This document shows, piece by piece, positions 1,195-63,600 of a DNA stretch of 64,000 bases; position 1 is the first letter of the stretch; the number at the start of each line of letters is the position of its first letter. The stretch lies in the NCBI RefSeq assembly GCF_014349155.1, contig NZ_JACSIT010000050.1, positions 2,501-66,500 of the forward strand, in the 5' to 3' direction. This DNA is from Neolewinella lacunae (GTDB lineage: Bacteria > Bacteroidota > Bacteroidia > Chitinophagales > Saprospiraceae). The notes below the pieces were generated by a model. It did not search any database. It saw nothing but the letters and a program-made list of their open reading frames with translations, and had not been told where the DNA came from. Position numbers and translations under genes: made by a program.

Positions 1195-1292
1195 GGGCGC
1201 GGCCGCAGGTGCCAGAGAAGGTGGAAAGGAGCAAGGGAAGAATAAGACTCGCCCTGCTACGGGTTCCCATCCCCCGCACCTGCGTCAGCGCC
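1195..1292. repeat. REPIN-like inverted pair, copies 1 and 2
   Basis: A forward core GGGCGCGGCCGCAGGTGCC at 1195-1213 faces a reversed, more diverged core GCACCTGCGTCAGCGCC at 1276-1292. The 62 bp between them includes GGAGCAAGGGAAG, which recurs next to other copies. It lies between the porin stop and the glnA start. Confidence 0.8.
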
Positions 1293-1304
1293 TGGATTGG
1301 TTAA

Positions 1305-2453
1305 CTAGAAAGAGTAGACGCCCGCGAGGATAAAGGCGAATACGGACTCATCGTTGACCCCGTAGGTATCGGAATCGTAGACGTTAAAGAAGCCATTGCT
1401 GCCCGAGTCGAAGCGCACTTCGGGGATGATGCGGAGGTCACCGACGCTGAACCCGGCGCTGGCCGTAAGGCTGAGTACGCTGGGCGTATCGATGTCTACT
1501 CCTTCGGGCGGCGTGAGCGAGAAGAGCTCGCCGCGCAGGCTGACGGTAGCGGTTTCGGAAGCGTTGACGGTAGCGTAGAGCGCCGTGCCGAAGAATCCGC
1601 CCACGCTTTCGCCGTCGAAGCTCTGGCTGTAGCTGCTCACGTTGAGGCCCAGGGAGAAAGTTTCGCTGACGGCGTAGGTCGCCGTGAGGTCCACCTGGAA
1701 CTCGCTGAGGTCGTCATCGCTGGTGGTGAGATCACCCCCTTCGGCCTCTTTGCCGGTCAGCACATTGAGGTAGGCGGAGAGGCCACCGAGTTCGGTGCTC
1801 AACTGGGCACCGAGGTGCTTACCGGCCACTCCGTCAATCTTGGAGTCCGTATCGTTGAACACCCCGATCATTGCCCCGAATTTTTCGCCGAGGGCGAAAT
1901 CGGCTTTCGCACCGGTGTGGAAGAAAGGTCCGTTGCTGAAGAGGTAACTTACGCTGTAATTCATGTTGGCGGGGGCATCGATGACTTCGTAGCCCACGAA
2001 GGTACCAAAGTTACCGAGGGTGAAGGTAACGGCGTCGCTGGGCGAGTAGGTTACGAACAGCTGCTGAACGGTAGAGGCGAAGTTTCCAGCGAAGCCACCG
2101 TTGGCCTGGGTGGCGCGGGGGCCGAAACCGACCTGGCCGACGAAGCCGACTTTACCTACCGTCTTTTCGGCCAGCAGGTTGACGTTGCCGATACCGAAGG
2201 TATTGGTAGCACCGGTGAAGCTGGTACCGAAGGGGAGGTAAACGCCGTCTGCGCCATCGACCTGCGAAACGTTGCCCTGGTAGTAGGCATCGACGTAGCC
2301 GGTGAGGGAGAAGCCGGGCTCCTCTTCTTCTTTTTCTTCCTGGGCCGTGGCGGGCGTTACCACCGGATCGGTAGTTGCTTCGACGGCTTGGGCGAAAAGT
2401 TGGAAACTGGAAAGCAGGAAGGCCACGAGGGTGATTTTAAAACTTAGTTTCAT
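1305..2453 (-). CDS. Outer-membrane beta-barrel porin (OmpL/bbp2-like)
   Basis: A 382-residue predicted outer-membrane barrel. The start at 2453 gives a clean signal peptide (KLSFKITLVAFLLSSFQLFAQA), then an acidic linker, then alternating aromatic/hydrophobic strands ending in the aromatic C-terminus GVYSF typical of porins. Upstream in-frame codons would put about 30 residues before the signal peptide and are unlikely. Similar porins are often found beside ammonium transporters in Bacteroidota, so a role in passage of small nitrogen compounds across the outer membrane is plausible. It lies between amtB and glnA on the same strand. The substrate is inferred from context only. Confidence 0.8.
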   Translation of the reverse strand: MKLSFKITLVAFLLSSFQLFAQAVEATTDPVVTPATAQEEKEEEEPGFSLTGYVDAYYQGNVSQVDGADGVYLPFGTSFTGATNTFGIGNVNLLAEKTVGKVGFVGQVGFGPRATQANGGFAGNFASTVQQLFVTYSPSDAVTFTLGNFGTFVGYEVIDAPANMNYSVSYLFSNGPFFHTGAKADFALGEKFGAMIGVFNDTDSKIDGVAGKHLGAQLSTELGGLSAYLNVLTGKEAEGGDLTTSDDDLSEFQVDLTATYAVSETFSLGLNVSSYSQSFDGESVGGFFGTALYATVNASETATVSLRGELFSLTPPEGVDIDTPSVLSLTASAGFSVGDLRIIPEVRFDSGSNGFFNVYDSDTYGVNDESVFAFILAGVYSF

Positions 2454-2571
2454 GGTAAAGTGAGGTTGGTAATTGCGGGGTTGCAATTGGAGAAGGTGAG
2501 AAAAACACCGGACGAGAACCAACCTCGGAGGTAATTTGGGCAAATGGATTGCGCCTGCTTACCTTTATCGC

Positions 2572-2668
2572 TTCCGCCGCAGGTGGCGGAAAAGATCCTT
2601 GAGTCGGGGGCGGTTCTACCGTTTCCGGCGGGCCCGTCTTAAGCGTTGCAGCGCTGGCGGGCCTTTTT
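2572..2668. other. Two GC hairpins between amtB and the porin gene
   Basis: TTCCGCC and GGCGGAA pair around a six-base loop at 2572-2591. A second GC-rich stem at about 2630-2662 ends in GGCGGGCC followed by TTTTTT on the plus strand. No plus-strand gene ends here, so its use as a terminator is unclear. It may instead limit read-through between amtB and the porin gene. Confidence 0.4.
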
Positions 2669-2734
2669 TGTTGAAAGAATGGTAGTGGGGTGGATGGGTT
2701 TTGGACACCCTGCCCCACTACCTTATATATATGG

Positions 2735-4015
2735 TTACGATTCGCTGGTGAGCTGGAAGACGCCGTCTTCCTTGTTCAGCGTGTAGGCGTGCATGTCGTG
2801 CTCGCCGATGTCGAGGCCTTTCAGCTCTTCTTCGGCGTCGACGCGGATGCCCACGGTTACCTTGAGTACGCCGAGGATACCGAAGGTAGTGGCGAAGCTG
2901 AACGCACCTACGGCCAACGTACCGATCAACTGGGTAAAGAAGTGGTGGTCTGGGTTGGTGCTGAAGATGCCAACGGCCAGGGTGCCCCAGATGCCGCACA
3001 CGCCGTGGACGGAAGTGGCGCCTACGGGGTCATCGAGTTTCAGCGTTTTATCGAAGAAGACAATGCTTACGGGGATGATGATGCCGGCGATGGCTCCGAT
3101 GGCGATGGCGCTGATGCCGGTGAAGCTATCGGCTCCGGCCGTGATGCCTACCAGGCCCCCGAGGATGCCGTTGAGGACCATGGAGAGGTCGTAGGACTTA
3201 AACATGAGGTAAGCCATGAAGAAGGCCGCCAAGCCGCCGGCCGCAGCGGCCAGAGAGGTGGTGACGAAGACCAGGGAAACGGCGTTGGGGTTGGCGCTCA
3301 GGACGGAACCGCCGTTGAAGCCGAACCAACCAAACCACAGGAGGAAAACACCGATGGCGGCCAGGGGCATGCTGTGGCCGGGGATGGCCGTGATGCTGCC
3401 GTCTTTGCGGTACTTCCCTTTGCGGGCACCGAGAAGGATGATGGCGGCCAGGGCAGCGAAGCCACCGGCGGCGTGTACGAGGGTAGAGCCTGCGAAGTCG
3501 TAAAAGCCCTTCGTATCCAACCAGCCCAGGCCCCACTTCCAGCTGCCGGTAATGGGGTAGCTGAAGGCCACGAAAAGGGTGGCAAAGATGAGGAAGGGCA
3601 CGAGCTTCATGCGCTCCGCAACGGCACCGGAAACAATGGTGGCGCAGGTGGCGGCAAACATGCCCTGGAAGATGAAGTCGGAGTAGCCCGTGTAGCTAGA
3701 ACCAGCTTCGGCAGCGGCAGCGTAGGCCTCGGAAGACCCGTCGCCAATGGCACCCGCAGCCCAGTCCATGGGAGCGAAGCGGCCCAGCCAACCACCGATG
3801 CTCCAGGCATCGCCGGGATACATCAGGTTGTAGCCCACGACGTAGTAAGTGAGCAGGCCGATGGAGATGATCATGGAGTTTTTGAAGAGGATGTTCACAA
3901 CGTTCTTACGCTGCACGAAGCCAGCCTCAAGGGTGGCAAAACCCAGGTGCATGATGAAGACCAGGCAGGTCGCAATCAGTATCCAGAGGTTATTAACGGT
4001 AAGCATTGCTTCCAT
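2735..4015 (-). CDS. amtB: Ammonium transporter, Amt family
   Basis: Inner-membrane ammonium channel of 426 residues with about eleven membrane helices. Family landmarks are visible: FATLEAGFVQRKN near the N-terminus, FQGMFAATCATIVSGAVAER, the pore histidine region TLVHAAGGFAALAA and the second histidine in SVHGVCGIWG. Amt channels are trimeric and gated by PII proteins, and the PII gene lies directly upstream on the same strand with a 269-bp gap. Starts at 4015 and 4006 are both possible; the first is used. The function is secure. Confidence 0.96.
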   Translation of the reverse strand: MEAMLTVNNLWILIATCLVFIMHLGFATLEAGFVQRKNVVNILFKNSMIISIGLLTYYVVGYNLMYPGDAWSIGGWLGRFAPMDWAAGAIGDGSSEAYAAAAEAGSSYTGYSDFIFQGMFAATCATIVSGAVAERMKLVPFLIFATLFVAFSYPITGSWKWGLGWLDTKGFYDFAGSTLVHAAGGFAALAAIILLGARKGKYRKDGSITAIPGHSMPLAAIGVFLLWFGWFGFNGGSVLSANPNAVSLVFVTTSLAAAAGGLAAFFMAYLMFKSYDLSMVLNGILGGLVGITAGADSFTGISAIAIGAIAGIIIPVSIVFFDKTLKLDDPVGATSVHGVCGIWGTLAVGIFSTNPDHHFFTQLIGTLAVGAFSFATTFGILGVLKVTVGIRVDAEEELKGLDIGEHDMHAYTLNKEDGVFQLTSES

Positions 4016-4284
4016 GGAGTTGAAAATTTTAGTTTCGAAGGGAAATTCGAGTGAGTGGGGGGTTACTGGAAGGAAACCACCACCGGGTGCTCAGCGCAAG
4101 GAGTACTCACGACGGGCCCGGGATGGACGAAACAAATGGTTACCTGGAAGGGGCTAAGGAAAGGCGGACCTGCACCGCTGGATGCGCTGGTGCGTAGATG
4201 GGAAAGTGAGGCAGAAACTGCCGGTCCGCAGTAAGTTGAAGCGGAGGGGTGGTTAGGCCCACCGGCGGGGAGAAGGGGCGCAGA

Positions 4285-4623
4285 TCAGATGGCGCTCTCG
4301 TCTTCTTCACCCGTGCGGATGCGGACGACGCGGTCTACATCAAAAACGGTGATTTTGCCATCCCCGACCTTGCCCGTACGGCCAGCGGAGGTGATGGCGC
4401 TGATGATGGCATCAAGCTTTTCGGTCGGCGCGAGGATGTCCAGCTGAAGGCGAGCAATGTAGTCGGCATCGTAAACGCTGCCGCGGTAGGTGAGCTGCTC
4501 GCCGCGTTGGAGGCCAAAACCCTTTACCTCAGTGAGGGTAAAGAAATTGACGTCAATTTCGGCCAAAGCATCACGGATGGCCTCAAAACGGGACAAACGA
4601 ATGATAGCTTCAATCTTCTTCAT
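4285..4623 (-). CDS. glnK: PII nitrogen regulatory protein (GlnB/GlnK)
   Basis: A 112-residue cytosolic trimeric signal protein sensing ATP/ADP and 2-oxoglutarate. It opens with MKKIEAIIR and carries the T-loop region GLQRGEQLTYRGSVYDADYI, keeping the tyrosine (SVY) equivalent to the uridylylated Tyr51. The C-terminal nucleotide-binding segment GRTGKVGDGKITV and VVRIRTGE are present. Placement upstream of amtB is the classic glnK-amtB arrangement, so it most likely gates the ammonium channel. GlnK rather than GlnB is inferred from this context. Confidence 0.94.
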   Translation of the reverse strand: MKKIEAIIRLSRFEAIRDALAEIDVNFFTLTEVKGFGLQRGEQLTYRGSVYDADYIARLQLDILAPTEKLDAIISAITSAGRTGKVGDGKITVFDVDRVVRIRTGEEDESAI

Positions 4624-4983
4624 GTGGGGAAGTTATCTTTGCCGCTTGGGTGGTTAAACCAGGCTGGGCAAATTTGCGTGAAAAGGAACAAGTTGTCGGG
4701 CTATCTGGTTAAGGGCGCTCAAGGGAGATCGTCACCTCCGCTTTGGTCTTACAAAGGTGAAACAGCGGGCGGAAGCCAGAGAGCCAATGTCGGCCGTAAA
4801 ATGTTACGTTCAAAACTAAGCAAACCAATTGTAAAGCACTGATAATTAACTACATAGCTAAAAAATTGCTGCCATGGCAAGCCTCCCGGATGTCCCCCGA
4901 CTAAAACGGAAAAATCCCGGCTGACGGCCCCGGGCAGTAACTAAGCAGTACCTTTCCCACCCTTCTCTCCGTATTCTTGCACC
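4624..4983. other. Divergent intergenic region, glnK / helical protein
   Basis: No gene seen in these 360 bp. The minus strand of 4811-4818 reads TAGTTTTG, a match to the Bacteroidota -7 box, and could serve glnK with a leader of about 180 nt. The right half is an AT/GC-mixed spacer with no strong repeat. Confidence 0.35.
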
Positions 4984-7562: not shown

Positions 7563-7929
7563 AGCCGCAGGCAGCCATTGCTTTCGGCACAGCAGACTGG
7601 AAGGGGGCGCGGCCGCAGGTGGAAAGAACGGGACCAAACAGCAAGGCCCAACCCGAACCCGGCAGTTGCTCCACTTCCACCAGATCCGCCGCCCCCCCTT
7701 CCCTGGCTCGTTCAACTTACGCTGCACCTGCGGCCGCGCCCGTGCTGCACCAGCCCGCCTATTTCCGCTCCCCTGCCCTGCTTGTCGGCCACACAACCAA
7801 ACAAGCTGGCCCTTTGATATGGCAAATTTCTTCAACTGTGTTCCGACCCGTATTTTTGCCGCGCTCTGGCGCTGACAGCTTGCAATACGAGCACTGATTA
7901 TTTCTTCGACCTACTCTCATCTGATTTTC
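7563..7929. other. Intergenic region with REPIN-like pair
   Basis: No gene is supported in these 367 bp. The region holds the inverted repeat pair at 7605-7741, then an AT-richer stretch near 7860-7929 that should contain the promoter of the metalloprotease gene. Confidence 0.6.
7605..7741. repeat. REPIN-like inverted pair, copies 3 and 4
   Basis: The forward core GGGCGCGGCCGCAGGT at 7605-7620 and the reversed core GCACCTGCGGCCGCGCCC at 7724-7741 are separated by 103 bp. Both cores are near-perfect. The pair begins 43 bp after the stop of the preceding gene. Confidence 0.85.
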
Positions 7930-11464: not shown

Positions 11465-11893
11465 ATGGCAAAAAAGCAAAAACGCAACGACGGGCTGGCC
11501 TTCTCTTCCCCCGCCAGCGAAGCCAATGATAATCCCTTCGCTGCGCTGCTGGGGCTCGGAGCTGAGTTGCCGGCCGGCCCGGCTCATCCCGCTGCCGAAG
11601 ACGACGATGGGGGCGCGGACGCAGGTGCAGTGGCGGGGGACGTAAAAGCAAAGATGGCCCTGCGGGTACACCACGACCGCAAGCACCGCAATGGTAAAGA
11701 AGCCACCATCATCACCGGATTCACCGGCACCGATGAGCAGCTTGCCGACCTCGGAAAATTACTGAAGTCCCGCTGCGGCGTCGGCGGCTCCGCCAAGGAC
11801 GGCGAGATCATCATCCAGGGCAACAAACGCGATAAAGTCCTCGAAATCCTCCTGGCCGAAGGCTACCGCGCCGCCAAAAAAAGTGGCGGGTAG
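11465..11893 (+). CDS. SUI1/eIF1-like translation initiation factor
   Basis: A 142-residue protein whose C-terminal two thirds are the SUI1 fold ([58 protein letters not shown]), the family that includes E. coli YciH and eukaryotic eIF1. It should act at the small ribosomal subunit. The N-terminal linker (about 1-60) is low complexity and contains a copy of the dispersed repeat translated as Gly-Ala-Asp-Ala-Gly-Ala at about residues 49-54. The start is an ATG 34 bp after the protease stop, so the two could be co-transcribed. The bacterial role of this family is poorly defined. Confidence 0.9.
11611..11629 (+). repeat. Dispersed repeat core inside SUI1 gene
   Basis: GGGCGCGGACGCAGGTGC in forward orientation, in the linker-coding part of the SUI1 gene. 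It is translated in frame as Gly-Ala-Asp-Ala-Gly-Ala. Confidence 0.75.
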
Positions 11894-14888: not shown

Positions 14889-14907
14889 GCATCCTGCGGC
14901 CGCGCCC
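14889..14907 (-). repeat. Dispersed repeat core, reverse, slightly diverged
   Basis: GCATCCTGCGGCCGCGCCC is the reversed core with one substitution (CACC to CATCC). It sits in the divergent promoter region between the DUF547 and acyl-CoA dehydrogenase genes. Confidence 0.7.
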
Positions 14908-16817: not shown

Positions 16818-16835
16818 GGGCGCGGACGCAGGTGC
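16818..16835 (+). repeat. Dispersed repeat core, forward
   Basis: GGGCGCGGACGCAGGTGC, followed by GAAGCAAGGGAAG, which matches the extended part of the family. It lies between the acyl-CoA dehydrogenase and DUF4157 genes. Confidence 0.85.
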
Positions 16836-18874: not shown

Positions 18875-18892
18875 GGCACCTGCGCCAGCGCC
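18875..18892 (-). repeat. Dispersed repeat core, reverse, diverged
   Basis: GGCACCTGCGCCAGCGCC is the reversed core with the central part altered. The sequence just upstream (CTTCCTTTGCTC) matches the reversed extension of the family. It follows the DUF4157 gene. Confidence 0.75.
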
Positions 18893-18900
18893 ACTGAACG

Positions 18901-18968
18901 GTCTTGTAGTCCGGTAGTTCTTTAGTGCCCGATACGGATAACGCTACAGAACCCACAATCTACAAGAC
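18901..18968. other. GTCTTGTAG / CTACAAGAC inverted repeat upstream of ubiD
   Basis: GTCTTGTAG (18901-18909) is perfectly complementary to CTACAAGAC (18960-18968). The stretch to 18990 contains several ACTAC words. It resembles the hairpin at 11984-12037 in word content. Confidence 0.35.
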
Positions 18969-18993
18969 TACCGATTTACCAGACTACAGACTT

Positions 18994-20811
18994 ATGTACG
19001 CCTCCCTCCGTCAGGCCGCCGAAGACCTCGAAAAAAACGGCCAACTCCTGCGCATCAGTGAAGAAGTGGACCCCGATCTGGAGATGGCCGAAATCCACCG
19101 CCGCATCTTTGCCGCCGGTGGTCCCGCCATCCTTTTTGAGCGCGTCAAAGGGAGTCCGTTCCAGGCCATTTCCAACCTCTACGGAACGAAGGAGCGGACG
19201 GATTTTCTGTTCCGCAAGACGCTGCCCCGCGTCAAAAAGGTGGTAGAGCTCAAGGCCGACCCCGCCAATTTTGCCCGCAACCCCCTGCGCTACCTCGGGG
19301 CGCCGTTTACGGCCCTGAGCGCCCTACCCCGCCGCCACTTCCGGCCCGCCATCAAGTACGCCCGCACGACGATCGATCAGTTGCCCCTCGTTAAATCGTG
19401 GCCCATGGACGGCGGTGCCTTCGTCACCCTGCCCCAGGTGATGACCCTGCCGCCGGGCAGCCGCAAGCCGATGGAATCCAACATCGGCATGTACCGCATC
19501 CAGCTGACGGGCAACGATTACGTGACCAACCAGGAAATCGGGCTGCACTACCAGTTGCACCGCGGCATCGGCGTGCACCATACGGCGTATTTGCAGTCTG
19601 ATGAGCCCTTTCGTTGCAGCATTTTCGTTGGCGGGCCGCCCAGCCACGCCTTTTGTGCCATCATGCCGCTGCCCGAGGGGCTGAGTGAAATGACTTTTGC
19701 CGGGATGCTGGCGGGGCGCCGCTTCGGTTACACCTGGGATGGCGACTGGCTGCTGTCGGCCGATGCCGACTTCGTCATCACCGGCACCATCCGCAAGGGG
19801 GAGAAAAAGCCCGAGGGCCCCTTCGGCGACCACCTGGGCTACTACAGCCTGCAACACGATTTTCCGGTGATGGACGTCGAGGCCGTCTGGCACCGCAAAG
19901 ACCCGCTGTGGCACTTCACCGTAGTGGGGCGGCCGCCGGCGGAAGACAGCCAGTTTGGCTACCTGATCCACAAAATCGTCAAAGACCTTACACCCGGCGA
20001 ATTCCCGGGCATCCGGCAGATCAATGCCGTTGATGAGGCGGGCGTGCATCCCCTGCTGTTGGCCGTTGGCTCGGAGCGCTACATGCCCTTCCGCGAACGT
20101 GTGCCGGAGGAGATCATTACCCAGGCCAACCGCATTCTGGGCAGCGGGCAGACAAGCCTGGCCAAATACTGCATCATTGCGGCCGACGAAGACGACCCCA
20201 AACTGGACGCCGACGATCAACCCGCCTTCTTTCACCACGTGCTGGAGCGCTTCGACCCCCGGCGCGACCTGCATTTCCAGACCCGGACGACCATCGACAC
20301 CCTGGACTACAGCGGCTCGGGCTGGAATGCGGGCAGCAAGCTCATCCTCGCCTGCCGTGGCGACCGCCGGCGCTCCCTGGCTACGGAAGTACCCGCCGCC
20401 CTGCAACTTCCGGAGGGTTACAGCGCGCCGCAGCTGGTGGCACCGGGCATTCTGGCCGTTGCGGGCCCGCCCTTTTCCGCCACGGGCTACGCCGATCTGG
20501 AGCCTTTTCTGGGCGCGAACGCAGGTGCTTTGGACATCACAACGAGCGATGGAGGCCCACAGGTACCCCTCATTGTGGTCTGCGACGACAGTCACTTCCT
20601 GGCCGCGTCTTTCGCCAATTTCGTCTGGGCCACCTTCACACGCTCCAACCCGAGCCACGACCTGCACGGCATCGACGCCTTCACGGAGCACAAGCACTGG
20701 GGCTGCACGGGGCCCGTAGTGATCGATGCCCGCGTTAAGCCCTGGCACGCTCCCGGCCTGGTGCCCGACCCGGCGGTGAGCGAACGGGTGGAGCAAAGAT
20801 TAAAGGAGTAA
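18994..20811 (+). CDS. UbiD-family decarboxylase
   Basis: A 605-residue member of the UbiD family, which uses prenylated FMN to decarboxylate aromatic or unsaturated acids. It has the UbiD layout: N-terminal QAAEDLEKNGQLLRISEEVD, the cofactor/metal region SNIGMYRIQLTGNDYVTNQEIGLHYQLHRGIG, PEGPFGDHLGYYS, and EHKHWGCTGPVVIDA at the C-terminus. The length of about 600 suits the menaquinone/ubiquinone-type decarboxylases, so quinone synthesis is the best guess. I start at the ATG at 18994 because conserved sequence begins there; a GTG 23 codons earlier is possible. A repeat core encodes Gly-Ala-Asn-Ala-Gly-Ala near residues 507-512. Confidence 0.87.
   Translation: MYASLRQAAEDLEKNGQLLRISEEVDPDLEMAEIHRRIFAAGGPAILFERVKGSPFQAISNLYGTKERTDFLFRKTLPRVKKVVELKADPANFARNPLRYLGAPFTALSALPRRHFRPAIKYARTTIDQLPLVKSWPMDGGAFVTLPQVMTLPPGSRKPMESNIGMYRIQLTGNDYVTNQEIGLHYQLHRGIGVHHTAYLQSDEPFRCSIFVGGPPSHAFCAIMPLPEGLSEMTFAGMLAGRRFGYTWDGDWLLSADADFVITGTIRKGEKKPEGPFGDHLGYYSLQHDFPVMDVEAVWHRKDPLWHFTVVGRPPAEDSQFGYLIHKIVKDLTPGEFPGIRQINAVDEAGVHPLLLAVGSERYMPFRERVPEEIITQANRILGSGQTSLAKYCIIAADEDDPKLDADDQPAFFHHVLERFDPRRDLHFQTRTTIDTLDYSGSGWNAGSKLILACRGDRRRSLATEVPAALQLPEGYSAPQLVAPGILAVAGPPFSATGYADLEPFLGANAGALDITTSDGGPQVPLIVVCDDSHFLAASFANFVWATFTRSNPSHDLHGIDAFTEHKHWGCTGPVVIDARVKPWHAPGLVPDPAVSERVEQRLKE
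20511..20528 (+). repeat. Dispersed repeat core inside ubiD-family gene
   Basis: GGGCGCGAACGCAGGTGC in forward orientation, translated in frame as Gly-Ala-Asn-Ala-Gly-Ala. Confidence 0.65.
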
Positions 20812-23155: not shown

Positions 23156-23173
23156 GGGCGCGGCCGCAGGTGC
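23156..23173 (+). repeat. Dispersed repeat core, forward, next to fabI stop
   Basis: GGGCGCGGCCGCAGGTGC begins at 23156, one base after the fabI TAA. It would lie in the fabI 3' untranslated region. Confidence 0.85.
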
Positions 23174-26619: not shown

Positions 26620-27144
26620 TTAAGTAGTGGGGCGAACGAGCACGTAGCCATCCGCCGTGAGGTCCTCGACGAGTACCGGAGTACCCGTTGGGATGGGCTC
26701 GCCGGAAGCGGAGCGGGCTTTGAGTTCGCGGTTGGTACCTTTAATGGGGATGTTGACGAGGCCTTCGCCGGCAGCGGGGATGAGGAGGTAGACCGTCCCT
26801 TGCTGGTACAGGGCGTCCCGCAGCGACCAGTTGACATCCGCCTGCTGCGCAAGCATGAATTTCAGGAGGATGCTGAGGACCCAGACGGCCACTGCACCTG
26901 CGGCCGCGCCCAGCGTAAAAGCCAATACCGGATCGAGTTGACTGGTCAGGAACAATTTTACCGTCCAGGCCCCGATGGACACGAAAGTGAGCACTCCTTT
27001 GAAGATGCCGAGGCTACCGCTATCGAAGTCGCTGTTGAAATCCAGGTCGATATCGAAGTCCAAGCCGCTGATGATGGACAGCAACAAGAGCAGCAGCAGA
27101 ATGCCTCCGGAAATCAGGGAAATGGTGGTGAGCAGTTCGATCAT
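26620..27144 (-). CDS. NfeD-like membrane protein
   Basis: A 174-residue NfeD-type protein with an N-terminal helix (ISGGILLLLLLLSII), two further hydrophobic segments (about 48-66 and 73-96) and a C-terminal OB-like beta domain (GTVYLLIPAAGEGLVNIPIKG ... TGTPVLVEDLTADGYVLVRP). NfeD proteins partner with flotillins, and the flotillin gene is immediately downstream. Oddly, residues 79-84 (Gly-Ala-Ala-Ala-Gly-Ala), within a membrane helix, are encoded by a perfect copy of the dispersed repeat core. Confidence 0.85.
   Translation of the reverse strand: MIELLTTISLISGGILLLLLLLSIISGLDFDIDLDFNSDFDSGSLGIFKGVLTFVSIGAWTVKLFLTSQLDPVLAFTLGAAAGAVAVWVLSILLKFMLAQQADVNWSLRDALYQQGTVYLLIPAAGEGLVNIPIKGTNRELKARSASGEPIPTGTPVLVEDLTADGYVLVRPTT
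26894..26911 (-). repeat. Dispersed repeat core inside NfeD-like gene
   Basis: GCACCTGCGGCCGCGCCC, a perfect reversed core in the plus-strand reading. On the coding strand it is in frame and encodes Gly-Ala-Ala-Ala-Gly-Ala within a predicted membrane helix. Confidence 0.75.
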
Positions 27145-28306: not shown

Positions 28307-28709
28307 AGTAAGGTTGCAGTTTTTCCAGTAGGTAAGCGGGGGCGGAGACGGCTTTGGCGGTCTTCACGTCAATGAAACACAACTTTACGCTGCCACCGTT
28401 GACCAATTTACCCTTTTCGTTGTGAATCTCGACGTAAAAAGTGATGGTATCGACGGGCAGCCGCCTTAAAGTGGTCGTGATCGTCAGCAATTCATCGTAG
28501 CGGGCCGGACGGACGAAACGCTGGTTGAGGCTCATCACCGGCATCATCACCCCGTGCTCCCCTTCCATGTTGGCGTAGGTGAGGCCCAAATCCCGCAGCA
28601 TCTCCACGCGGCCAATCTCGTAGAGCAGGGCATAGCGGCCGTAGTAGAGGTAGGCCATCTGGTCAGTCTCTCCGTAACGGACGCGGTGGGTGGTGGAGGT
28701 GGTTAGCAT
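28296..28709 (-). CDS. Acyl-CoA thioesterase (YbgC/4HBT family)
   Basis: A 137-residue hotdog-fold thioesterase. The N-terminal RVRYGETDQMAYLYYGRY holds the catalytic aspartate and the helix of the 4-hydroxybenzoyl-CoA thioesterase family. RFVRPARYDELLTITT and FYVEIHNEKGKLVNGGSVKLCFID follow in the usual order. It hydrolyses acyl-CoA thioesters; chain preference is unknown. It is first in a two-gene unit with the YihY-like gene. An 8-bp repeat array begins just upstream of its start. Confidence 0.92.
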   Translation of the reverse strand: MLTTSTTHRVRYGETDQMAYLYYGRYALLYEIGRVEMLRDLGLTYANMEGEHGVMMPVMSLNQRFVRPARYDELLTITTTLRRLPVDTITFYVEIHNEKGKLVNGGSVKLCFIDVKTAKAVSAPAYLLEKLQPYFED

Positions 28710-28751
28710 TGATTAATGAGCGAATGGGTGAGCACGAAGTACTGCGCAGCA

Positions 28752-28978
28752 AATGAGTGAATGAGTGAATGAGTGAATGAGTGAATGCGTGAATGGGGGA
28801 ATGAGCGAATGCGTGAATGAGTGAATGCGTGAATGCGTGAATGCGTGAATGAGTGAATGCGTGAATGCGTGAATGAGTGAATGCGTGAATGGGTGAATGC
28901 GTGAATGCGTGAATGGGGGAATGAGCGAATGCGTGAATGGGTGAATGCGTGAATGCGTGAATGGGGGAATGAGCGAAT
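28752..28978. repeat. 8-bp tandem array, about 28 units
   Basis: Degenerate units of the type GTGAATGC, GTGAATGA, GTGAATGG and GGGAATGA run head to tail. The unit is not a multiple of three and contains TGA, so it cannot code for long. An inverted stretch of the same words is at 29121-29146. Confidence 0.92.
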
Positions 28979-28982
28979 AAAT

Positions 28983-29052
28983 GACCGCCGTAGGCAGCAG
29001 CGTAGCTAATAATTGAATAAATGAAAACCGTAGGCAGCAGGGTAGCTAAATA
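28983..29052. repeat. Two copies of the GACCGCCGTAGGCAGCAGCG element
   Basis: The element is at 28983-29010 and, less exactly, at 29026-29052. The same element recurs three times at 49730-49890. Confidence 0.8.
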
Positions 29053-29120
29053 AGGGGATAAATGAATAATTTGCCGAGGTCAGATGATTACTGGATGATT
29101 GGCCTATCCCGTGCGGTAGC

Positions 29121-29146
29121 TCATTCACTCATTCACGCATTCACCC
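29121..29146. repeat. Inverted stretch of the 8-bp array at the valS 3' end
   Basis: The minus strand reads GTGAATG words matching the 28752-28978 array. The valS TGA stop (29133-29135) lies inside it. Confidence 0.85.
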
Positions 29147-31886
29147 GAAGGATGCGCTCCAGGCTGGCGATTTTGGCGGTGGCGTCGGCTTGTTTTTTGC
29201 GTTCGAGGGTGATGACTTCTTCGGGGGCGTTGGCGACGAAGCGTTCGTTGGACAACTTTTTCTCGATGCCGGCCAGAAAGCCGCGCAGGCGATCCAGCTC
29301 GGCTTGCATTTTGGCGCGTTCGGCGGCCTGGTCGATCGTTTCGTTTAAGACGAGGTAGGCCGTATCGTTGCCGAAGAGGAAGGGCAGGGCGTTGTCTGGG
29401 GCGGCATCCGTCAGCGCGACGGCCGACAAAACACCGCTCTTTTGGAGGAATTCCCTGGCACCCCGAAATCCTCCGGGACTATTGCCTGCGTTCGCGCCCA
29501 AGAGCGCCTCACTGGCCGGCGAATGCTCCACGAACAACTGCAAAGGTTCCCGGGGGGCAATCTCGCGCTGGCTGCGGATGTAGCGGATGTGGCTGACCGT
29601 CTCCTGCAAAAGGGTGAAAGACTGGATGAGCGCCGCGTCAAAATCTTCGACCTTGGGCCAGGTGCTGACCACGCAATCTTCGCCCTCCCGGCGCTCGCGC
29701 AGTCCGTGCCAGACCTCTTCGGTGATGAAGGGCAGAAAGGGGTGGAGCAGGGTCATCATCCGTTCAAAAGCCGAAACGGTGGCTTCGTAAGTATCGCGGC
29801 TGATGACGCCATCGGCGGGTTTGATGGCCTCCAGGTACCACGAGCAGAAGTCGCCCCAGATGAAATTGTAGAGCGTGCGCAACGCCTCGCTGATGCGGTA
29901 TTCGCCGAGCATGCGGTCTACCTCCCCGGTGGTTTCGTTCAGCTTGGCCAGCAGCCATTCGGCGGCCAAAAGCTCCAAAGCGTCGGGCGCACGGTCGCTG
30001 ACGGTAAAGCCCTGCAAAAGCCGGTTGGCGTTGAAAATCTTGTTGCAGAATTTCTTGCCCTGGTCGCACAACTCGCTGGTGTTGAGCACTTTTTGCGTCT
30101 GTGGGTCGATGGGGGCGTCGAAGACGATGTCATTGCCGGCCGCCGCGCTCGACATCATCCCGAAGCGTACGCCGTCGGCGCCGTAGGTCTTGAGCAGTTC
30201 CAGCGCGTCGGGGCTGTTGCCGAGGGATTTCGACATTTTGCGGCGCTTTTCATCGCGGACCATCCCGGTGAAGTAGACGTTGCGGAAGGGCATGCGGCCG
30301 TTCTTTTCCACGAAGTCTTTGCCCAGCAGGTCTTCGCTGAATTCGTAGCCGGCCATGACCATGCGGGCGACCCAGAAGAACATGATGTCCCAGCCCGTCA
30401 CCAGGTCGCTGGTGGGGTAATAGTACTGCAGTTCGCGGGTATCTTTCCAGCCGTCGAAGACGGAAAGGGGCCAGAGCCAGCTGGAGAACCAAGTATCGAG
30501 CACGTCTTCGTCCTGCTGTAAATCTTCCAGTTGCAAATTGGCCTCCGGGTGGGCCTGCTGGGCCTGGGCGAGGGCTTCGGCGGCGGTTTCGGCCACGAAC
30601 ACTTCGTCCTTCCAGTACCAGGCCGGGATGCGCTGCCCCCACCAGAGCTGGCGGCTGACGCACCAGTCGCGGACGTTCTCCGGCGTCAGCCAGTTGCGGT
30701 ACATATTGACCATGTTGGGCGGGTGGAAGCGGACTTCGCCGGATTCCACTGCGCCGAGGGCGGTGGCGGCCAGGTCGTCCATGCGCAAAAACCACTGCAG
30801 GGTCAGGCGGGGTTCGACCACGGCGTTGGTGCGTTCGCTGCGGCCGATGCGGGTGCGGTATTGGGTGGTGGCTACCAGGTCTCCGCTGGCTTTGAGGAGC
30901 TTGACGATTTCGGTGCGGGCCTCGAAACGATCGAGTCCTACACCGACTTGGGCGAATTCGTTGAGCTTGCCATCGGGCGTGAGGATGTCGATCACCTCCA
31001 GGCCGTACTTTTCGCCGAGGGCGTAGTCGTTGGGGTCGTGGGCGGGCGTCACCTTGAGGGCGCCGGTGCCGAATTCGGGATCGACGTAATCGTCGGTGAT
31101 GATGGGGATGGGGCGGTTGACCAGGGGGACGATCACCTGCCGGCCGTGGTAGCGCAGGTAGCGTTCGTCGGTGGGGCTGACGGCCAGGCCCGTATCGGCC
31201 ATGATCGTTTCCGGGCGCTGGGTGGCGATGGTGATGTACTCATCGTCGGTGCCGGCCACTTTGTAGCGGACGTGGTAGAGGTTCGAGTTTTCGTCGGTGT
31301 AGATGACTTCCTCGTTGCTGAGTACCGTTTGGGCCTCGGGGTCCCAGTTGGTCATGCGCAGGCCGCGGTACATTTTGTCTTTGCGGTAGAGGCTGACGAA
31401 GACCTTGATGACGGCCCGGTAGAGCTCCGGCTCCATGGTGAAGCGGGTGCGTTGCCAGTCGCAGCTGGCGCCCAGTTCCTGGAGTTGCTGGAGGATGATT
31501 CCGCCGAATTCCTCTTTCCATTCAAAGGCGTGGGCGAGGAATTCCTCGCGGGTGAGATCCGATTTTTTGATGCCCTTTTCGCGGAGGCGCTGGACGACCT
31601 TGGCTTCGGTGGCGATGCTGGCGTGGTCGGTACCGGGCACCCAGCAGGCGTTGCGTCCGTCGAGGCGGGCCTTGCGGATGAGGATGTCCTGGATGGTATT
31701 ATTGAGCATGTGCCCCATGTGGAGCACGCCGGTGACGTTGGGTGGCGGGATGACGATGGTGAAGGGCTCGCGCTCGTCGGGCTCGCTGTGGAAGTAATTT
31801 TTGGCCAGCCAGTGCTGGTACCATTTGTGTTCAACGTCGGCGGCGGAATAGGCCTGGGGGGTACGGTTTCCTTCGGGGGCGGGCAT
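29133..31886 (-). CDS. valS: Valine-tRNA ligase
   Basis: Charges tRNA-Val in the cytoplasm. The 917-residue product has HMGH in PPPNVTGVLHMGHMLN, the editing domain, KMSKS in RRKMSKSLGNSPDAL, and a C-terminal coiled coil (AAERAKMQAELDRLRGFLAGIEKKL), so it is complete. Two oddities occur. A 17-codon in-frame segment (Gly-Ala-Asn-Ala-Gly-Asn-Ser-Pro...) near residues 796-812 is a long copy of the dispersed repeat. The last codons (Val-Asn-Ala, then TGA) are made by the 8-bp repeat GTGAATGC. TATCTTCG on the coding strand at 31918-31925 fits a -7 box. Confidence 0.96.
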   Translation of the reverse strand: MPAPEGNRTPQAYSAADVEHKWYQHWLAKNYFHSEPDEREPFTIVIPPPNVTGVLHMGHMLNNTIQDILIRKARLDGRNACWVPGTDHASIATEAKVVQRLREKGIKKSDLTREEFLAHAFEWKEEFGGIILQQLQELGASCDWQRTRFTMEPELYRAVIKVFVSLYRKDKMYRGLRMTNWDPEAQTVLSNEEVIYTDENSNLYHVRYKVAGTDDEYITIATQRPETIMADTGLAVSPTDERYLRYHGRQVIVPLVNRPIPIITDDYVDPEFGTGALKVTPAHDPNDYALGEKYGLEVIDILTPDGKLNEFAQVGVGLDRFEARTEIVKLLKASGDLVATTQYRTRIGRSERTNAVVEPRLTLQWFLRMDDLAATALGAVESGEVRFHPPNMVNMYRNWLTPENVRDWCVSRQLWWGQRIPAWYWKDEVFVAETAAEALAQAQQAHPEANLQLEDLQQDEDVLDTWFSSWLWPLSVFDGWKDTRELQYYYPTSDLVTGWDIMFFWVARMVMAGYEFSEDLLGKDFVEKNGRMPFRNVYFTGMVRDEKRRKMSKSLGNSPDALELLKTYGADGVRFGMMSSAAAGNDIVFDAPIDPQTQKVLNTSELCDQGKKFCNKIFNANRLLQGFTVSDRAPDALELLAAEWLLAKLNETTGEVDRMLGEYRISEALRTLYNFIWGDFCSWYLEAIKPADGVISRDTYEATVSAFERMMTLLHPFLPFITEEVWHGLRERREGEDCVVSTWPKVEDFDAALIQSFTLLQETVSHIRYIRSQREIAPREPLQLFVEHSPASEALLGANAGNSPGGFRGAREFLQKSGVLSAVALTDAAPDNALPFLFGNDTAYLVLNETIDQAAERAKMQAELDRLRGFLAGIEKKLSNERFVANAPEEVITLERKKQADATAKIASLERILRVNA
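29451..29501 (-). repeat. Long-form dispersed repeat inside valS (51 bp)
   Basis: It has the reversed core GCCTGCGTTCGCGCCC plus an extension containing TCCTCCGGGACTAT. It is 46/51 identical to 63503-63553 in the helicase gene. It is in frame and free of stops in valS. Confidence 0.88.
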
Positions 31887-32013: not shown

Positions 32014-32032
32014 GGGCGCGGCCGCAGGTGCC
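32014..32032 (+). repeat. Dispersed repeat core, forward
   Basis: A perfect GGGCGCGGCCGCAGGTGCC in the divergent region between valS and the SDR gene. Confidence 0.85.
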
Positions 32033-43055: not shown

Positions 43056-43074
43056 GGCACCTGCGGCCGCGCCC
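43056..43074 (-). repeat. Dispersed repeat core, reverse, with extension
   Basis: A perfect reversed core between two convergent genes. Read on the minus strand, the extension reads GGTGAAGGAGCGAGGGAGG, close to the extension at 1195. Confidence 0.88.
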
Positions 43075-47774: not shown

Positions 47775-48097
47775 AAAGTTAGCGTTTTGCGGCTTTTCTC
47801 CATTTGGGCGCGGCCGCAGGTGCCGGGCGAGAAACAGGGAGAAGCCTGGTCAGCCCAGCCAACGGACGTCCTGCGGGTGGCGAACTTTGCTGCGGAAAAC
47901 CCGCATTACTGGCTCCAGCGGCCAATCCTTGCTCGTCATCACCAGTGCAGCACCTGCGTCCGCGCCCCTCACAATAACCGTTCCGCCACCTGGATCACCC
48001 CCCACTGTCAGCCCACGGTAAATAGCGCTGGCGGAGGAGCCATACCGCAACCATCCTACCCACCTGCCGTTAGTCTGAGACGAAAAGCCGCCCCAAT
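47775..48097. other. Divergent intergenic region with REPIN-like pair
   Basis: These 323 bp hold the inverted repeat pair at 47806-47967 and the presumed promoters of the unknown gene and the photolyase gene. No gene is supported. Confidence 0.6.
47806..47967. repeat. REPIN-like inverted pair
   Basis: The forward core GGGCGCGGCCGCAGGTGCC at 47806-47824 and the reversed core GCACCTGCGTCCGCGCCC at 47950-47967 are separated by 125 bp. The reversed copy is preceded by CCTTGCTCGTC, a match to the reversed extension. Confidence 0.85.
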
Positions 48098-49690: not shown

Positions 49691-49904
49691 CCTTTCTCCT
49701 GCGCGAGCAAATTTTGAATGTTGAATGTTGACCGCCGTAGGCAGCAGCGCAGTTAATTGTAAATGTTAAATGTTGACCGCCGTAGGCAGCAGCGCAGTTA
49801 ATTGTAAATGTTAAATTAATCCGCCTTTCTCCTGCGCGAGCAAATTTTGAATGTTGAATGTTGACCGCCGTAAGCAGCAGCGCAGTGAATTGTAAATGTT
49901 AAAT
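49691..49904. repeat. 81-bp direct repeats with GACCGCCGTAGGCAGCAGCG
   Basis: Full units at 49691-49771 and 49824-49904 differ at only a few positions, and a partial unit lies between them. Each contains the GCAGCAG element (49730, 49775 and 49863), which also occurs at 28983-29052. Confidence 0.88.
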
Positions 49905-52910: not shown

Positions 52911-53338
52911 CGGTATTGGGTAGATAGACAAAAAGCAGTAGAACAAAGATAGGCAAAAGGCCCGGCCCGGGGGCATGGCTGGCCAAAAAGTGCCGCAGCC
53001 GGTACCTGCCCGGGGCGCGGCCGCAGGTGCCAGGGAAGGGGATGAGGAGCAAGGGCAGTCCAGCCACCCATTGCCGGTTAACCGCACCCTGCACCTGCGT
53101 TCGCGCCCAAAATGAAAAGCATAAGCGCCAGCGACCAAGGTATTGCCCTTTGCCTCACCATACCTTCCCAAACGGTGGTCGTTAAAGATTTTCCGGCCAC
53201 CCAGCAAAGCACTAAAAGCCGTACTTTCGCCCACCGTTAAACAAAAAACCGGGCAGCCGGGGTTATCGGTGGGGGCGGCGGCATCTCTGCCACCCACTTC
53301 ACCACTTCTGCCTTCCGCAAGACCCAAGTAAGACCATC
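52911..53338. other. Divergent intergenic region with REPIN
   Basis: These 428 bp separate the protease and ettA genes. They hold the REPIN at 53013-53108 and a TATCTTTG box on the minus strand at 52944-52951. No gene is supported. Confidence 0.65.
53013..53108. repeat. REPIN-like inverted pair, best-preserved
   Basis: The forward core GGGCGCGGCCGCAGGTGCC at 53013-53031 and the reversed core GCACCTGCGTTCGCGCCC at 53091-53108 are separated by 59 bp containing GATGAGGAGCAAGGGCAG. Total length is 96 bp. Confidence 0.9.
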
Positions 53339-55021
<1,683 letters not shown>

Positions 55022-55044
55022 GCCGCTTTACCCGCCTACGGGTT

Positions 55045-55205
55045 TCCCGGTTGAGGGTGTCCCCATACCGCTCAAGATCTCTCCGCTTGCGAACGTCCCG
55101 GTTGAGGGTGTCCCCACCCGAACCCCACCTGGCTCCGACTGCCTCTACCCCGCTCAGGATCTCTCCGCTTGCGAACGTCCCGGTTGAGGGTGTCCCCACC
55201 CGAAC
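55045..55205. repeat. Direct repeats with 82-bp period
   Basis: TCCCGGTTGAGGGTGTCCCC occurs at 55045, 55096 and 55178. The segments 55068-55123 and 55150-55205 are almost identical over 56 bp. They fill the gap between the convergent ettA and response-regulator genes. Confidence 0.88.
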
Positions 55206-55209
55206 CTTC

Positions 55210-58693: not shown

Positions 58694-58705
58694 GGTATGG
58701 GCGCA

Positions 58706-58742: not shown

Positions 58743-58789
58743 ATTTCATAATCTTCGTGAAAAAAGTATAAAATTCTTCCATCATCCCC

Positions 58790-60214: not shown

Positions 60215-60428
60215 GATCTTCAATTTGCTTTTCTAATACGGTCAGCTTGCGGTCAAGCGACCACAGATAAAAGACTAGCCCGAGAAAAACGACTACAATC
60301 ACGGCAACCACTACGTAAATCTTCCCGATGCTCCGCAGGAAATCGGCGGGTGGCTCGGCCGCAGATTGTGCCAACAGACTGCCCAGCGAAAAGGCCAACA
60401 ATAGAAAGGTGGTGGTGAAACGGGTCAT
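60207..60428 (-). CDS. CcmD-like small membrane protein
   Basis: A 73-residue protein with an N-terminal signal-like helix (TTFLLLAFSLGSLLAQS), a periplasmic stretch, and a second helix (IYVVVAVIVVVFLGLVFYLWSLDRKLTVLEKQI) resembling CcmD, which supports haem export during cytochrome c maturation. No other ccm gene is near. Its stop overlaps the start of gdhA, so the two are co-translated. The CcmD assignment is moderate because such short proteins are easy to confuse. Confidence 0.75.
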   Translation of the reverse strand: MTRFTTTFLLLAFSLGSLLAQSAAEPPADFLRSIGKIYVVVAVIVVVFLGLVFYLWSLDRKLTVLEKQIEDHV

Positions 60429-60534
60429 TCCCTCAAAAGGCTTTGGTTAGGTAATGGCAAATGTAATTCGGGAATAGCAGTTCAGGCACTTTCCCCCGCC
60501 GATTTTACCCATTTGTGGAAAATCAAGGCACCTG

Positions 60535-60552
60535 GGGCGCGGCCGCAGGTGC
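60535..60552 (+). repeat. Dispersed repeat core, forward, with extension
   Basis: A perfect GGGCGCGGCCGCAGGTGC followed by GATGGAGCAAGGCAAG, between the divergent CcmD-like and helicase genes. Confidence 0.88.
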
Positions 60553-60615
60553 AGGGCCGGTGACGATGGAGCAAGGCAAGTCTCCCCCACGCGGGCGAAC
60601 TTCCCCTCCACTCCT

Positions 60616-60623
60616 TATCTTCG
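60616..60623 (+). promoter_or_regulatory. Candidate -7 promoter element of the helicase gene
   Basis: TATCTTCG ends only 6 bp before the ATG, so transcription would begin at or very near the start codon and the mRNA could be leaderless. Confidence 0.4.
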
Positions 60624-60629
60624 CCTTTC

Positions 60630-63600
60630 ATGGAATCCCCCCAGCGTAACGATGCCTTCCGCAAATACTTTTACCGCCAGCTGGATAAGATCGCGGGCAA
60701 CGGTGTGCTTACCGAAGCCGACCGCGCCCAGGCCCTGCGCCAACTCATCGCCGAAATCTTTGAACGAGCCACCGAGCAGGATAAGCTGCACTTCTCCACC
60801 AGCTTCGCCCGCATCAGCTACGCCGCCCACAAGTACGGCATCCCCAACGTCCACATCCACCAGGAACGCCACTTCCGCACCCGCCGGCCAGCCCAGCTCA
60901 GCACCGAAGAACTGGGCAAACACGTCGCCACCGGCTACCGCCTGGCCACCGAACTCATCCGGGCCACCTTCGGCGGGGCCGTCCCCGACGAATGGGTGCG
61001 CTTCCTCACCTTCCCCTACCCTTTCCCCTACGTCAAGCCCGAGGTCCACGAACGCTTCCCCACCCTGCGGGTACTGGCCGTAGAAGACGACGCCGAAGAG
61101 CAACTGCTCTACGTCCGTGAAGAAGCCCAGGCCGAAAGAACCTTCGCCATCCCCTACGGCGAAAACGAGGTGAGCAACAGCCTCGTCGCCCAGGCCATCG
61201 CCATCGTTCGCAAGATCAGCGGCCTGCCCCTCATGCTCAACCTCATCGGGGCGGAACTGCGCGACGATGGCCAGCTCTACCCAGCCCAGATCATCGTTGA
61301 ACCCGATTACCTCATCGACGTCACCGCCGTGGCCGAGAGTTTCGACGGTACCCATTCCTACCAGCCCTGGACGAGCATCGCCCAGAAGCTCGTGCCCTAC
61401 CGCCAGGAAATCCCCCTCCTACGCGGCAACCTGGTCAACTACTTCCTCGACCGGCTGGTCGAAGCGCCCGAGGTGGAATTCCAAACCCTCATCGGCAGCA
61501 TCTTCCAAACCCAGCCACTGGCGCTCTGCCTTTTTGACGACAACCAGATCAAAGACCTGATCGACCAGCTCCGCACCCACTTCGTCACCCTCCAGAAATT
61601 CGTGCGTCAGGATCTGGCGGGCATCGACGTCGACCGCGAAAAGATTCTCCTCGAACCCACCTTCCTCTGCCCCACCTACGGCGTACAGGGTCGCCTCGAC
61701 TTACTCCAAACCGCCGAAAGTCCCAACGACCCTACCACCATCGTGGAGTTGAAAACCAGCAAGTACTGGCACCCCAACCGCCACGGCATCAATCAGACGA
61801 ACTACATCCAAACCCTGCTCTACGACCTGATGATCAACGAGGCCCTCGGAGAAGGAGCCAACGTACGCAGTTACATCCTCTACAGCGCCGACTACGGCAA
61901 CGGCCTCAAGTACGCCCCGCCCGAGTACCTCCAGAAACTCGAAGCCATCGCCGCCCGCAACCAGCTGATGGGCGTGGAACTTTTGCTCGGCCAGCTGGGC
62001 GTACCGCCAGACCAGGACCTCGCGGCCGCCACCAGCCACCTCCTCAACCGGCTGCAGCCCGCCAAAATCCCGACCCTCGGCACTTTCTCCGTCAAAGACC
62101 ACGAACTGGTCCTCACCGTCTTTGGCCAGCTTTCGGACCTGGAACGGCGCTACTTCGGCGCCTTCCTCGGCTTCACCGCCCGCGAACAACGCCTGGCCAA
62201 AACCGGCCAGCAAAAACTCGAAAGCATCAACGGACTCGCCTCGCTTTGGCTCGATGACCGTGCGGACAAAATCGAACGCTTCGAACTCCTCGATGGCCTC
62301 TCTTTCGCGGGCTACGACCCCAGCACCTCCATCCTCACCCTCCTCCGGCCAGAAGACGACGACCGCCTGGTAAAATTCCGCCAGGGCGACATCATCGCCC
62401 TCTACGCCACCCCCGCCAACACGGCCCAGCCCCAGGATACGATCCGCTCCCAGATCCTGAAATCCACCATCATTGCCGTCGACCACGAGCGCGTCCAGCT
62501 CCGCCTGCGCAGCCAGCAGCTCAACGACACCGCTTTCCGCCGCCCGGCGTACTGGAGCATTGAAAAGGACGTCCTCGACAGCAGCTTCCGCAACCACTAC
62601 CAGGGCTTGTTTGCCTGGGCGCAGTCCACGCCGGATTTTCGCCGCCGCTGGCTGGGTACCGAAGCCCCCCGGCAGGTGCCTCCTCTCCCCGGTGCCATCT
62701 CGCCGGAGCTTACGACCGAGCAAAACCGCATCCTGCAACGCATCATTACGGCCCCCGACTATTTCCTCCTCTGGGGGCCTCCCGGCACGGGAAAAACCAA
62801 CCAGATGCTGCACCATCTGGTACGCCACCTCCTGACCAACAGCGAAGAGTGCATCCTGCTGGTCGCCTACACCAACCGGGCGGTCGACGAAATCTGCGAG
62901 AGCCTGGAGCGCATCGTCGGTCCCGACGGCAAACCGTTTACGGATTACCTCCGCATCGGCAGCCGCTACGGCGTCAATGCCCGCTTTGAAGACCGGCTTT
63001 TGCAGGTCAAAAGCAGCCAGATCAGCCGCCGCCAGGAGCTCAAGACCCTCATTGAGCAAACGCGCATCTTCGTTGGCACCGTAGCCAGCGTGGGCGGCAA
63101 GGGGGAGCTCTTCGCCCTCAAGTCCTTCGACCGCCTGGTGGTGGACGAAGCGAGCCAGATCCTGGAACCTTTGCTGGCGGGCCTCTTGCCGCTGGCCCCG
63201 CAGACCCTCTTGATCGGCGATCACCGGCAGCTGCCCGCCGTAGTTCAGCAAGGCCCTGAAGACACGCTGGTACACGATACTGCCCTGCGGGAAATTGGCC
63301 TGACCAATCTCGCCACCAGCCTCTTCGAACGGCTTTTCCTCACCGCCCAACGCAAGGGATGGCACTGGGCTTTCGACCGTCTTCGCCACCAGGGACGGAT
63401 GCACCAGGACATCATGGCCTTCCCCGCCCAACATTTTTACGGGGGCGAGTTGCACATCCTGCCGGAGACCATCGCCCACCACCGCGCCCAGCTCCTTCCC
63501 CTTTCCCTGGCATCCCGAACTCCTCCGGGACTATCGCCTGCGGCCGCGCCCAATACCACCGAAGGACCTTCCCCCGCCCTGCTGAACACCCTTGGCACCC

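Follow-up and report, generated by a model that had tools for sequence, protein, structure and literature searches.

What is the 18-nt motif that recurs along a 64,000-nt stretch of the Neolewinella lacunae genome (the window, C32:2501-66500), and what has spread it? An earlier sequence-only reading of the window had listed 21 copies of a dispersed palindromic repeat and likened them to repetitive extragenic palindromic (REP) elements. The motif was followed through the organism's own genome (G000; 5,815,296 bases in 154 contigs) and its congeners, 21 genomes including G000, to which the G labels refer. Judged from sequence, the family is probably a self-DNA signal comparable to the DNA uptake sequences (DUS) and uptake signal sequences (USS) of other bacteria, spread by biased uptake.

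The family is genuine and lies far above chance, as had been claimed. The 18-mer GGGCGCGGCCGCAGGTGC occurred in the whole genome 636 times forward and 624 times in reverse at ≤2 mismatches (1,260 matches), compared with 4 + 0 matches for a reversed-pattern control. A refined profile, applied to 463 kb consisting of the window and 20 further stretches, yielded 131 sites, or one per 3.5 kb, and no site when run on the reversed sequence. Nineteen of these sites lie within the window. The 11 forward positions listed earlier were all exact, and the 10 reverse positions were correct to 1–2 bases only (e.g., 14890, 18876, 43057, and 63534). Of the 21 copies claimed, 19 score as members by the refined profile. 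At 29484 and 63536, a 24-nt hairpin interrupts a core-like sequence, and each of these two copies is located in a gene (valS and a helicase-like open reading frame, respectively). Exact convergent doublets were present in five stretches only of a species collection, from Neolewinella agarilytica, two Lewinella metagenome-assembled genomes (MAGs), and one Bacteroidia MAG (two contigs), which points to a Lewinella-like genus (Lewinellaceae, Saprospirales). A scan of viral contigs returned 22 stretches with the core.

The motif has a bipartite and asymmetric layout. A weak T-tract is followed by a sharp left edge and the head GGGCG-CGGC-CGCAGGTGC, in which GGGCG and CGCAGGTGC are separated by a 4-nt spacer, and by a one-sided purine-rich extension. 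This shared extension, suspected from the window, is a variable right arm in which GGAC and GGAGCAAGG are preferred and which ends approximately 48 nt from the left edge. The tolerance described for the center was also confirmed: variation is greatest at position 9 (C 61%, A 24%) and next greatest at positions 1, 8, and 7, in that order. Throughout the genome the motif acts as one unit, its half-sites being fixed and the letters of its spacer freer. Half-sites in G000 were predominantly 4 nt apart (123; control, 5), and a smaller group was 6 nt apart (14; control, 5). Orientation bias was absent among the 131 sites (68 vs. 63), and most copies were single. Neighbors less than 300 nt apart comprised 14 convergent, 4 divergent, and no tandem pairs. 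Convergent pairs less than 200 nt apart span 78–162 nt and fold as long hairpins; the description as palindromic holds for such pairs alone (four in the window, spanning 96–162 nt), the single copies being asymmetric.

To locate the copies relative to genes, a simple gene finder was used, and 4 of 113 copies that lacked both neighboring genes were dropped, leaving 109 classifiable copies. In G000, 78 of the 109 were intergenic, with gaps making up approximately 18% of the DNA, and 31 lay within predicted genes. Copies within predicted genes accounted for 26/50, 12/23, 11/18, and 25/48 in four other genomes. The coding copies in G000 were compared with synonymous shuffles of 297 genes (364 kb), which gave 10 observed vs. 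0.08 expected for exact cores, 9 vs. 0.64 for cores with one mismatch, 11 vs. 2.0 with two, and 5 vs. 6.8 with three. The local dialects of other genomes, counted at ≤2 mismatches, were likewise in excess (22 vs. 0.3 in G013, 9 vs. 0.7 in G016, 6 vs. 0.13 in G001, and 15 vs. 2.0 in G010), so that coding enrichment above codon usage was observed in all five genomes tested. Because they are far above the synonymous shuffles, the coding copies are not a by-product of the encoded proteins, and a reduction of the family to a shared protein motif is ruled out. They use several reading frames and appear as GAxAGA, as proline/alanine linkers, or in antisense. Some antisense copies seem to coincide with the ends of signal peptides (CxSAQ). 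Fourteen antisense coding copies were listed for G000. Seven of them lie no more than approximately 110 nt from the start of their gene, which parallels the concentration of antisense uptake sequences near gene 5′ ends (rcUS bias) in Pasteurellaceae, as described in PMC2346458.

These locations also bear on the least probable of the explanations considered, that the copies are transcription terminators, attenuators, or other RNA-level elements at gene ends. Heads often start 0–20 nt from a stop codon (21 of 121), and convergent pairs form strong hairpins, but the density of copies was about equal in the three types of gene gap, with 41 copies in 44.2 kb of tandem gaps, 21 in 22.1 kb of divergent gaps, and 16 in 14.7 kb of convergent gaps. 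Moreover, most copies are single, many are inside genes, the T-tract stands before the head and not after a hairpin, and Rfam and tRNA scans of the window gave no matches.

Positions of the motif are conserved between the species compared. G016 and G012 were compared over 200 kb each (95% aligned, 80.5% identical), and the motif was kept at the aligned place in G012 for 15 of 17 G016 sites. In the opposite direction, 15 of 23 sites were kept, 2 were found at 2 mismatches, 3 were lost, and 3 were not aligned. All fixed positions were identical in 12 of the 17 G016 sites, compared with 7.05% of 14,933 GC-rich (≥72%) aligned windows, and the flanks were less similar at the sites (0.71) than at the null windows (0.79). 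The GC-rich windows were used as the null in place of 40 shuffled-motif decoys, whose 4 hits, all lost, were too few. A pairwise retention count (360 comparisons) was dominated by a few loci around valS and was not used.

Within the coding sequence of valS, 16 of 20 congeneric genes have the motif in the same codon positions at ≤2 mismatches; G009 (55% complete) yielded no valS and is outside the valS counts. The exceptions are G000, in which the site is split by a hairpin, G015 with a 6-nt spacer, G001 with its own dialect, and G010, in which the motif is absent. None of 16 outgroup genes holds the motif at this site (best, 7 mismatches). Between congeneric and outgroup genes, the differences here are substitutions and a length change of about one codon, indicating that the site was gained without an inserted element. 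Upstream of valS, the motif is present in the same orientation at ≤1 mismatch in 8 of 19 genomes, G000 included, and G015 carries a 6-nt-spacer form, giving 9 of 19; the other 10 contain nothing better than 5 mismatches. The remainder of this gap looks unalignable by eye.

Lineages of the genus have their own dialects, which keep a common part and have been substituted at existing sites; for the G010 form, the common part and the places are presumed only. At least five dialects were distinguished, of which four were compared at orthologous places and one involves a change of spacer. Position 7 is T in 92% of G013 sites compared with 14% in G000, and the G013 spelling is alike in valS and upstream of it. 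G016 and G012 prefer GGACGCGGGTGCCG. In G001, the original motif has 1 + 1 matches at ≤2 mismatches, and the prevailing form is TTTGGGCGGCGGAGCGCAGGTA with a 6-nt spacer, found at 18 sites per 140 kb. An alignment to G001 stretches was obtained for 7 of the 17 G016 sites, and 5 of these 7 have the G001 dialect at the aligned place. At ≤2 mismatches, TTTGGGCGGCGGAGCGCAGGTA reaches 609 copies in G001 and 183 in the sister genome G006; the remaining 19 genomes have 1–93 each. In the valS tree, G010 branches off first within the genus. It has 892 copies of TTTTGGCTnnCAAAGTAGCAATG, of which the other 20 genomes have 0–7; its sites are evenly spaced and partly paired (2 convergent, 4 divergent). When the best represented form was taken for each genome, all 21 genomes had at least 137 copies. 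De novo k-mer analysis of three outgroup genomes (100 kb each) detected no comparable motif, although samples of this size are weak evidence of absence.

According to the REP interpretation, the copies would be moved by a REP-associated tyrosine transposase (RAYT, TnpA-REP), the convergent pairs being REP doublets (REPINs) and the single copies their decayed halves. REP/REPIN families share with this one abundant dispersed copies and inverted pairs with hairpin potential (PMC3116915), and the folding of convergent pairs, the intergenic excess, the hundreds of copies, and Y1_Tnp matches in 20 of the 21 genomes are all in keeping with it. The interpretation is nevertheless largely refuted and very improbable. 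The copies are not confined to extragenic DNA, they are retained at orthologous positions, the valS site arose without an insertion of element size, and the spelling changes in concert throughout a lineage; none of this resembles REP/REPIN systems with RAYT, and the 31 RAYT loci examined of 70 matches gave no sign of linkage.

With respect to that linkage, 31 of 70 matched RAYT loci were examined. The core had 9 matches in 98.7 kb, and 8 of the 31 loci had it within approximately 1.5 kb, whereas the same pattern matched 60 times in 357.3 kb (19 stretches around valS); RAYT loci are thus not enriched. The loci that were read (L051, L117, L120, and L130) carry other repeats by eye, and for L051 this was also counted. 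Apart from L120, discussed below, none of the 31 loci has a Y1 (TnpA-REP) gene flanked by the same core, as the REP interpretation had envisaged. The Y1_Tnp gene of N. lacunae itself (L051) is flanked on both sides by a different repeat, GGGGACACCCTCRRCC, in 13 copies altogether (L051 711-2507 and 2673). This repeat also occurs 3 times at window positions 55032-55206 and 10 times in 399 kb of L031-L050, and together with L051 it is likely the true REP/RAYT pair of the organism. No Y1_Tnp match was obtained in G018 despite its 665 copies at ≤1 mismatch, although an assembly of 880 contigs makes this insufficient as evidence by itself. G001 combines four Y1_Tnp matches with another dialect. One candidate for linkage was rejected. 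In L120 (G011), the only scanned RAYT locus of the 31 that lies between two core copies, the Y1_Tnp gene (1252-2081) stands between two convergent cores; this is taken as coincidence because the gene has an inverted repeat of its own, GGGCGCCCCTTCCAGGGACGTG, on either side, as seen by eye.

Spacing was assessed after merging close pairs by comparing the coefficient of variation (CV) of the gaps between sites with that of random placement. The gap CV in G000 was 0.60, compared with 0.88 ± 0.07 for random sites (0 of 1,000 sets as low) and 0.94 ± 0.09 for random sites weighted to gene gaps (0 of 500 as low). Values in G013 (0.64 vs. 0.90; 7 of 1,000) and G010 (0.54 vs. 0.80; 3 of 1,000) were also low, and spacing was therefore significantly even in three of the five genomes tested. 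Site-free 8-kb windows had a GC content of 0.478 (3 windows) vs. 0.586 for the others (53 windows), a contrast that rests on few windows and may be confounded by the GC-rich motif; the corresponding values for 4-kb windows, open to the same confounding, were 0.553 (n = 25) and 0.589 (n = 90). A low GC content of site-free windows would be expected of acquired DNA. As a separate observation, a cluster resembling by eye a contractile phage-tail or injection apparatus (L049 11572-17079; C43 31572-37079) lies in an 11.9-kb motif-free stretch, which is among the longest, and is possibly acquired DNA.

Even spacing also agrees with the main alternative. The motif could be the binding site of an abundant chromosome-organizing or global DNA-binding protein, with a nucleoid, repair, or methylation-linked role, in which case selection would act on spacing and occupancy and the dialects would follow the protein. 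We consider this unlikely, though less so than the two explanations discussed above. The conserved positions, the bipartite motif with preferred spacers of 4 or 6 nt, and the presence of copies in both genes and gaps agree with it as the spacing does, but a simultaneous re-spelling of hundreds of sites together with a spacer change would be difficult to achieve by selection site by site. A copy number that varies several-fold between congeners and a near-equal density in tandem, divergent, and convergent gaps also argue against it. A published parallel is HIP1 of cyanobacteria, another motif that is common within the genomes of a single clade and whose function is debated (PMC4390886). HIP1 is a symmetric octamer, a palindrome tied to orphan methyltransferases (GATC/CGATCG), whereas the motif described here is 18 nt long, asymmetric, mostly intergenic in G000, and divided into dialects.

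We therefore return to the self-DNA uptake signal, and the mechanism proposed for it is as follows. The motif would be recognized by a receptor for DNA entering the cell and not by the regulatory apparatus of the chromosome itself. A putative surface receptor of naturally competent cells would prefer DNA bearing the motif, and incoming homologous DNA would replace the resident allele. Alleles that improve the motif could thus spread without a benefit at each site (molecular drive), and a shift in receptor preference would let all sites drift to a new dialect. Such a drive would account for wholesale changes of dialect and for the even spacing, and it would explain why copies stand at neutral places and are tolerated inside genes.

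Neisseriaceae and Pasteurellaceae both have type IV pili, and the USS possesses a one-sided extension beyond its core, like the motif here. Uptake sequences have been described in both families (PMC3630211; PMC2346458; PMC7811141), and the drive of uptake sequences has been modeled for Haemophilus influenzae (Maughan, 2010, cited in PMC7811141). The present family resembles them in most traits visible in the sequence. As in the Neisseriaceae (PMC3630211), the copies number from hundreds to thousands, occur in genes and in inverted pairs, and form dialects around a conserved part. Eight DUS dialects with a common CTG core have been reported to follow phylogeny there, whereas only a difference between lineages is seen here. 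The present family belongs to another phylum, its motif of approximately 18 nt plus extension compares with 10–12 nt in DUS (PMC3630211), its dialects differ even in spacer length, and its genomes yielded no type IV pilus motor. With the USS of Pasteurellaceae it shares a fairly even distribution and antisense copies near gene 5′ ends, and the scarcity in acquired DNA reported there is only hinted at here; unlike the USS, it has an unrelated sequence, occurs in a different phylum, and reaches a density of approximately 1 per 3.5–9 kb compared with about 1 per kb (PMC2346458; PMC7811141).

Several observations weigh against an uptake signal. The type IV pilus motor was not found in the genus: matches to PF00437 are short and partial, at approximately 25 bits, and just reach the curated cut-off of 24.9 bits in 11 of the 21 genomes, and all three matching proteins checked are ClpB chaperones. 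For these reasons, the known DUS machinery seems to be missing. The claim made here is accordingly that the family works like a DUS and not that its membership is proven, because recognition by a type IV pilus, a mechanistic trait of the known cases, was not found. ComEC, the inner-membrane DNA channel, is encoded in all 21 congeneric genomes, in line with the proposal; it does not discriminate, because 12 of 15 outgroup genomes that were searched encode it as well. The majority of the G000 copies are intergenic, the motif (18 nt + approximately 28 nt of extension) is longer than known DUS, and its spacer is variable. Part of the arms and the hairpin inserts of intergenic G000 copies may come from another process. 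G016 and G012, with 23 and 29 sites, lean toward even spacing without significance (159–212 and 85–103 of 1,000 random sets as low), and the GC contrast is subject to the limits given above. The homology of the G010 form to the other dialects is inferred from layout (T-tract, GGC, and a C-A-x-x-G-T part) without alignment, and its orthologous places are likewise presumed.

The literature speaks to this point in part. Riemerella, another member of the Bacteroidota, is naturally transformed via ComEC, DprA, ComF, and proteins without a homologue in the well-known machinery, as described in PMC8459023. No uptake or competence experiment on the organisms studied here was found in the literature, which also counts against the proposal, and no report of natural transformation in Lewinella was found in open-licence publications. 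The same publications describe no uptake sequence or comparable motif for Bacteroidota or Lewinella, which is not proof of absence.

Two small hairpins (24 and approximately 27 nt) are associated with the 3′ part of the motif in G000; neither was found there in samples of 140–220 kb from each of five other congeneric genomes. A C-rich hairpin, usually 27 nt, follows the head, with 23 of its 26 occurrences directly after the core. The 24-nt hairpin (NATAGTCCCGGAGGANTTCGGG..) was found 4 times, each time inside a core after GCAGG, and a looser pattern gave 5 matches. Based on these positions directly behind or inside cores, the motif seems to serve as a landing site for small hairpins. The hairpin in valS (window 29460-29483) adds 8 residues in frame, and another hairpin lies at 63512-63535. 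The copy at 29484 was considered as a whole in-frame mobile element in valS and rejected, since the alignment shows the 24-nt hairpin insert alone, placed into a core-like site. The features of the window are listed in Table 1.

Table 1. Motif copies and hairpin-split cores in the window, with their gene context.
Feature	Position	Strand	Remark
Convergent pair (+ 1195, - 1276)	1195..1293	.	Tandem gene gap beside GlnII-like glutamine synthetase gene
Convergent pair (+ 7605, - 7724)	7605..7741	.	
Motif inside SUI1/YciH-like gene (11465-11893 +), reads GADAGA	11611..11628	+	
Single copy with one-base insertion (GGATGC)	14890..14907	-	
Single copy with full purine-rich arm, end near GAAGTCC	16818..16835	+	
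Single copy between predicted genes	18876..18893	-	
Motif inside UbiD-family gene (18925-20811 +), reads GANAGA	20511..20528	+	
Single copy, start 1 nt past stop codon of FabI-like gene	23156..23173	+	
Motif inside predicted gene (26620-27144 -), reads GAAAGA; weakest profile score of the window (20)	26894..26911	-	
Core-like coding sequence in valS split by 24-nt hairpin (8 aa)	29460..29499	-	Not in valS of 19 other congeneric genomes compared
Motif upstream of valS	32014..32031	+	
Single copy at predicted stop codon	36623..36640	+	
Single copy between convergent genes	43057..43074	-	
Convergent pair (+ 47806, - 47950) upstream of DASH cryptochrome gene	47806..47967	.	
Convergent pair (+ 53013, - 53091), 96 nt	53013..53108	.	
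Single copy with arm	60535..60552	+	
Core split by same kind of 24-nt hairpin	63512..63551	-	Inside + strand open reading frame; IGHMBP2-type helicase match below the model's cut-off

The window contains two further repeats. A tandem array of an 8-nt unit (GTGAATGC/GTGAATGA) lies just downstream of valS at 28704-29034, with an inverted copy at 29119-29157, and direct repeats of about 80 nt (GCAGCGCAGTTAATTGTAAATGTTAAAT) are present in three copies at 49691-49904.

The fuller proposition, that Bacteroidota possess a self-DNA uptake signal operating without a type IV pilus motor, whose letters and spacer length have been rewritten genome-wide on several occasions in a single genus, with the consequence that the DNA accepted would vary from species to species, is one we regard as evenly balanced. 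If true, it would add a third, independent case of an uptake signal, in another phylum, and would mean that self-DNA signatures arise repeatedly and do not depend on a pilus motor. With at least five dialects, one of them with a changed spacer, the co-evolution of receptor and motif and the molecular-drive model would be directly testable, and the dialects could lead to the DNA receptor of Bacteroidota.

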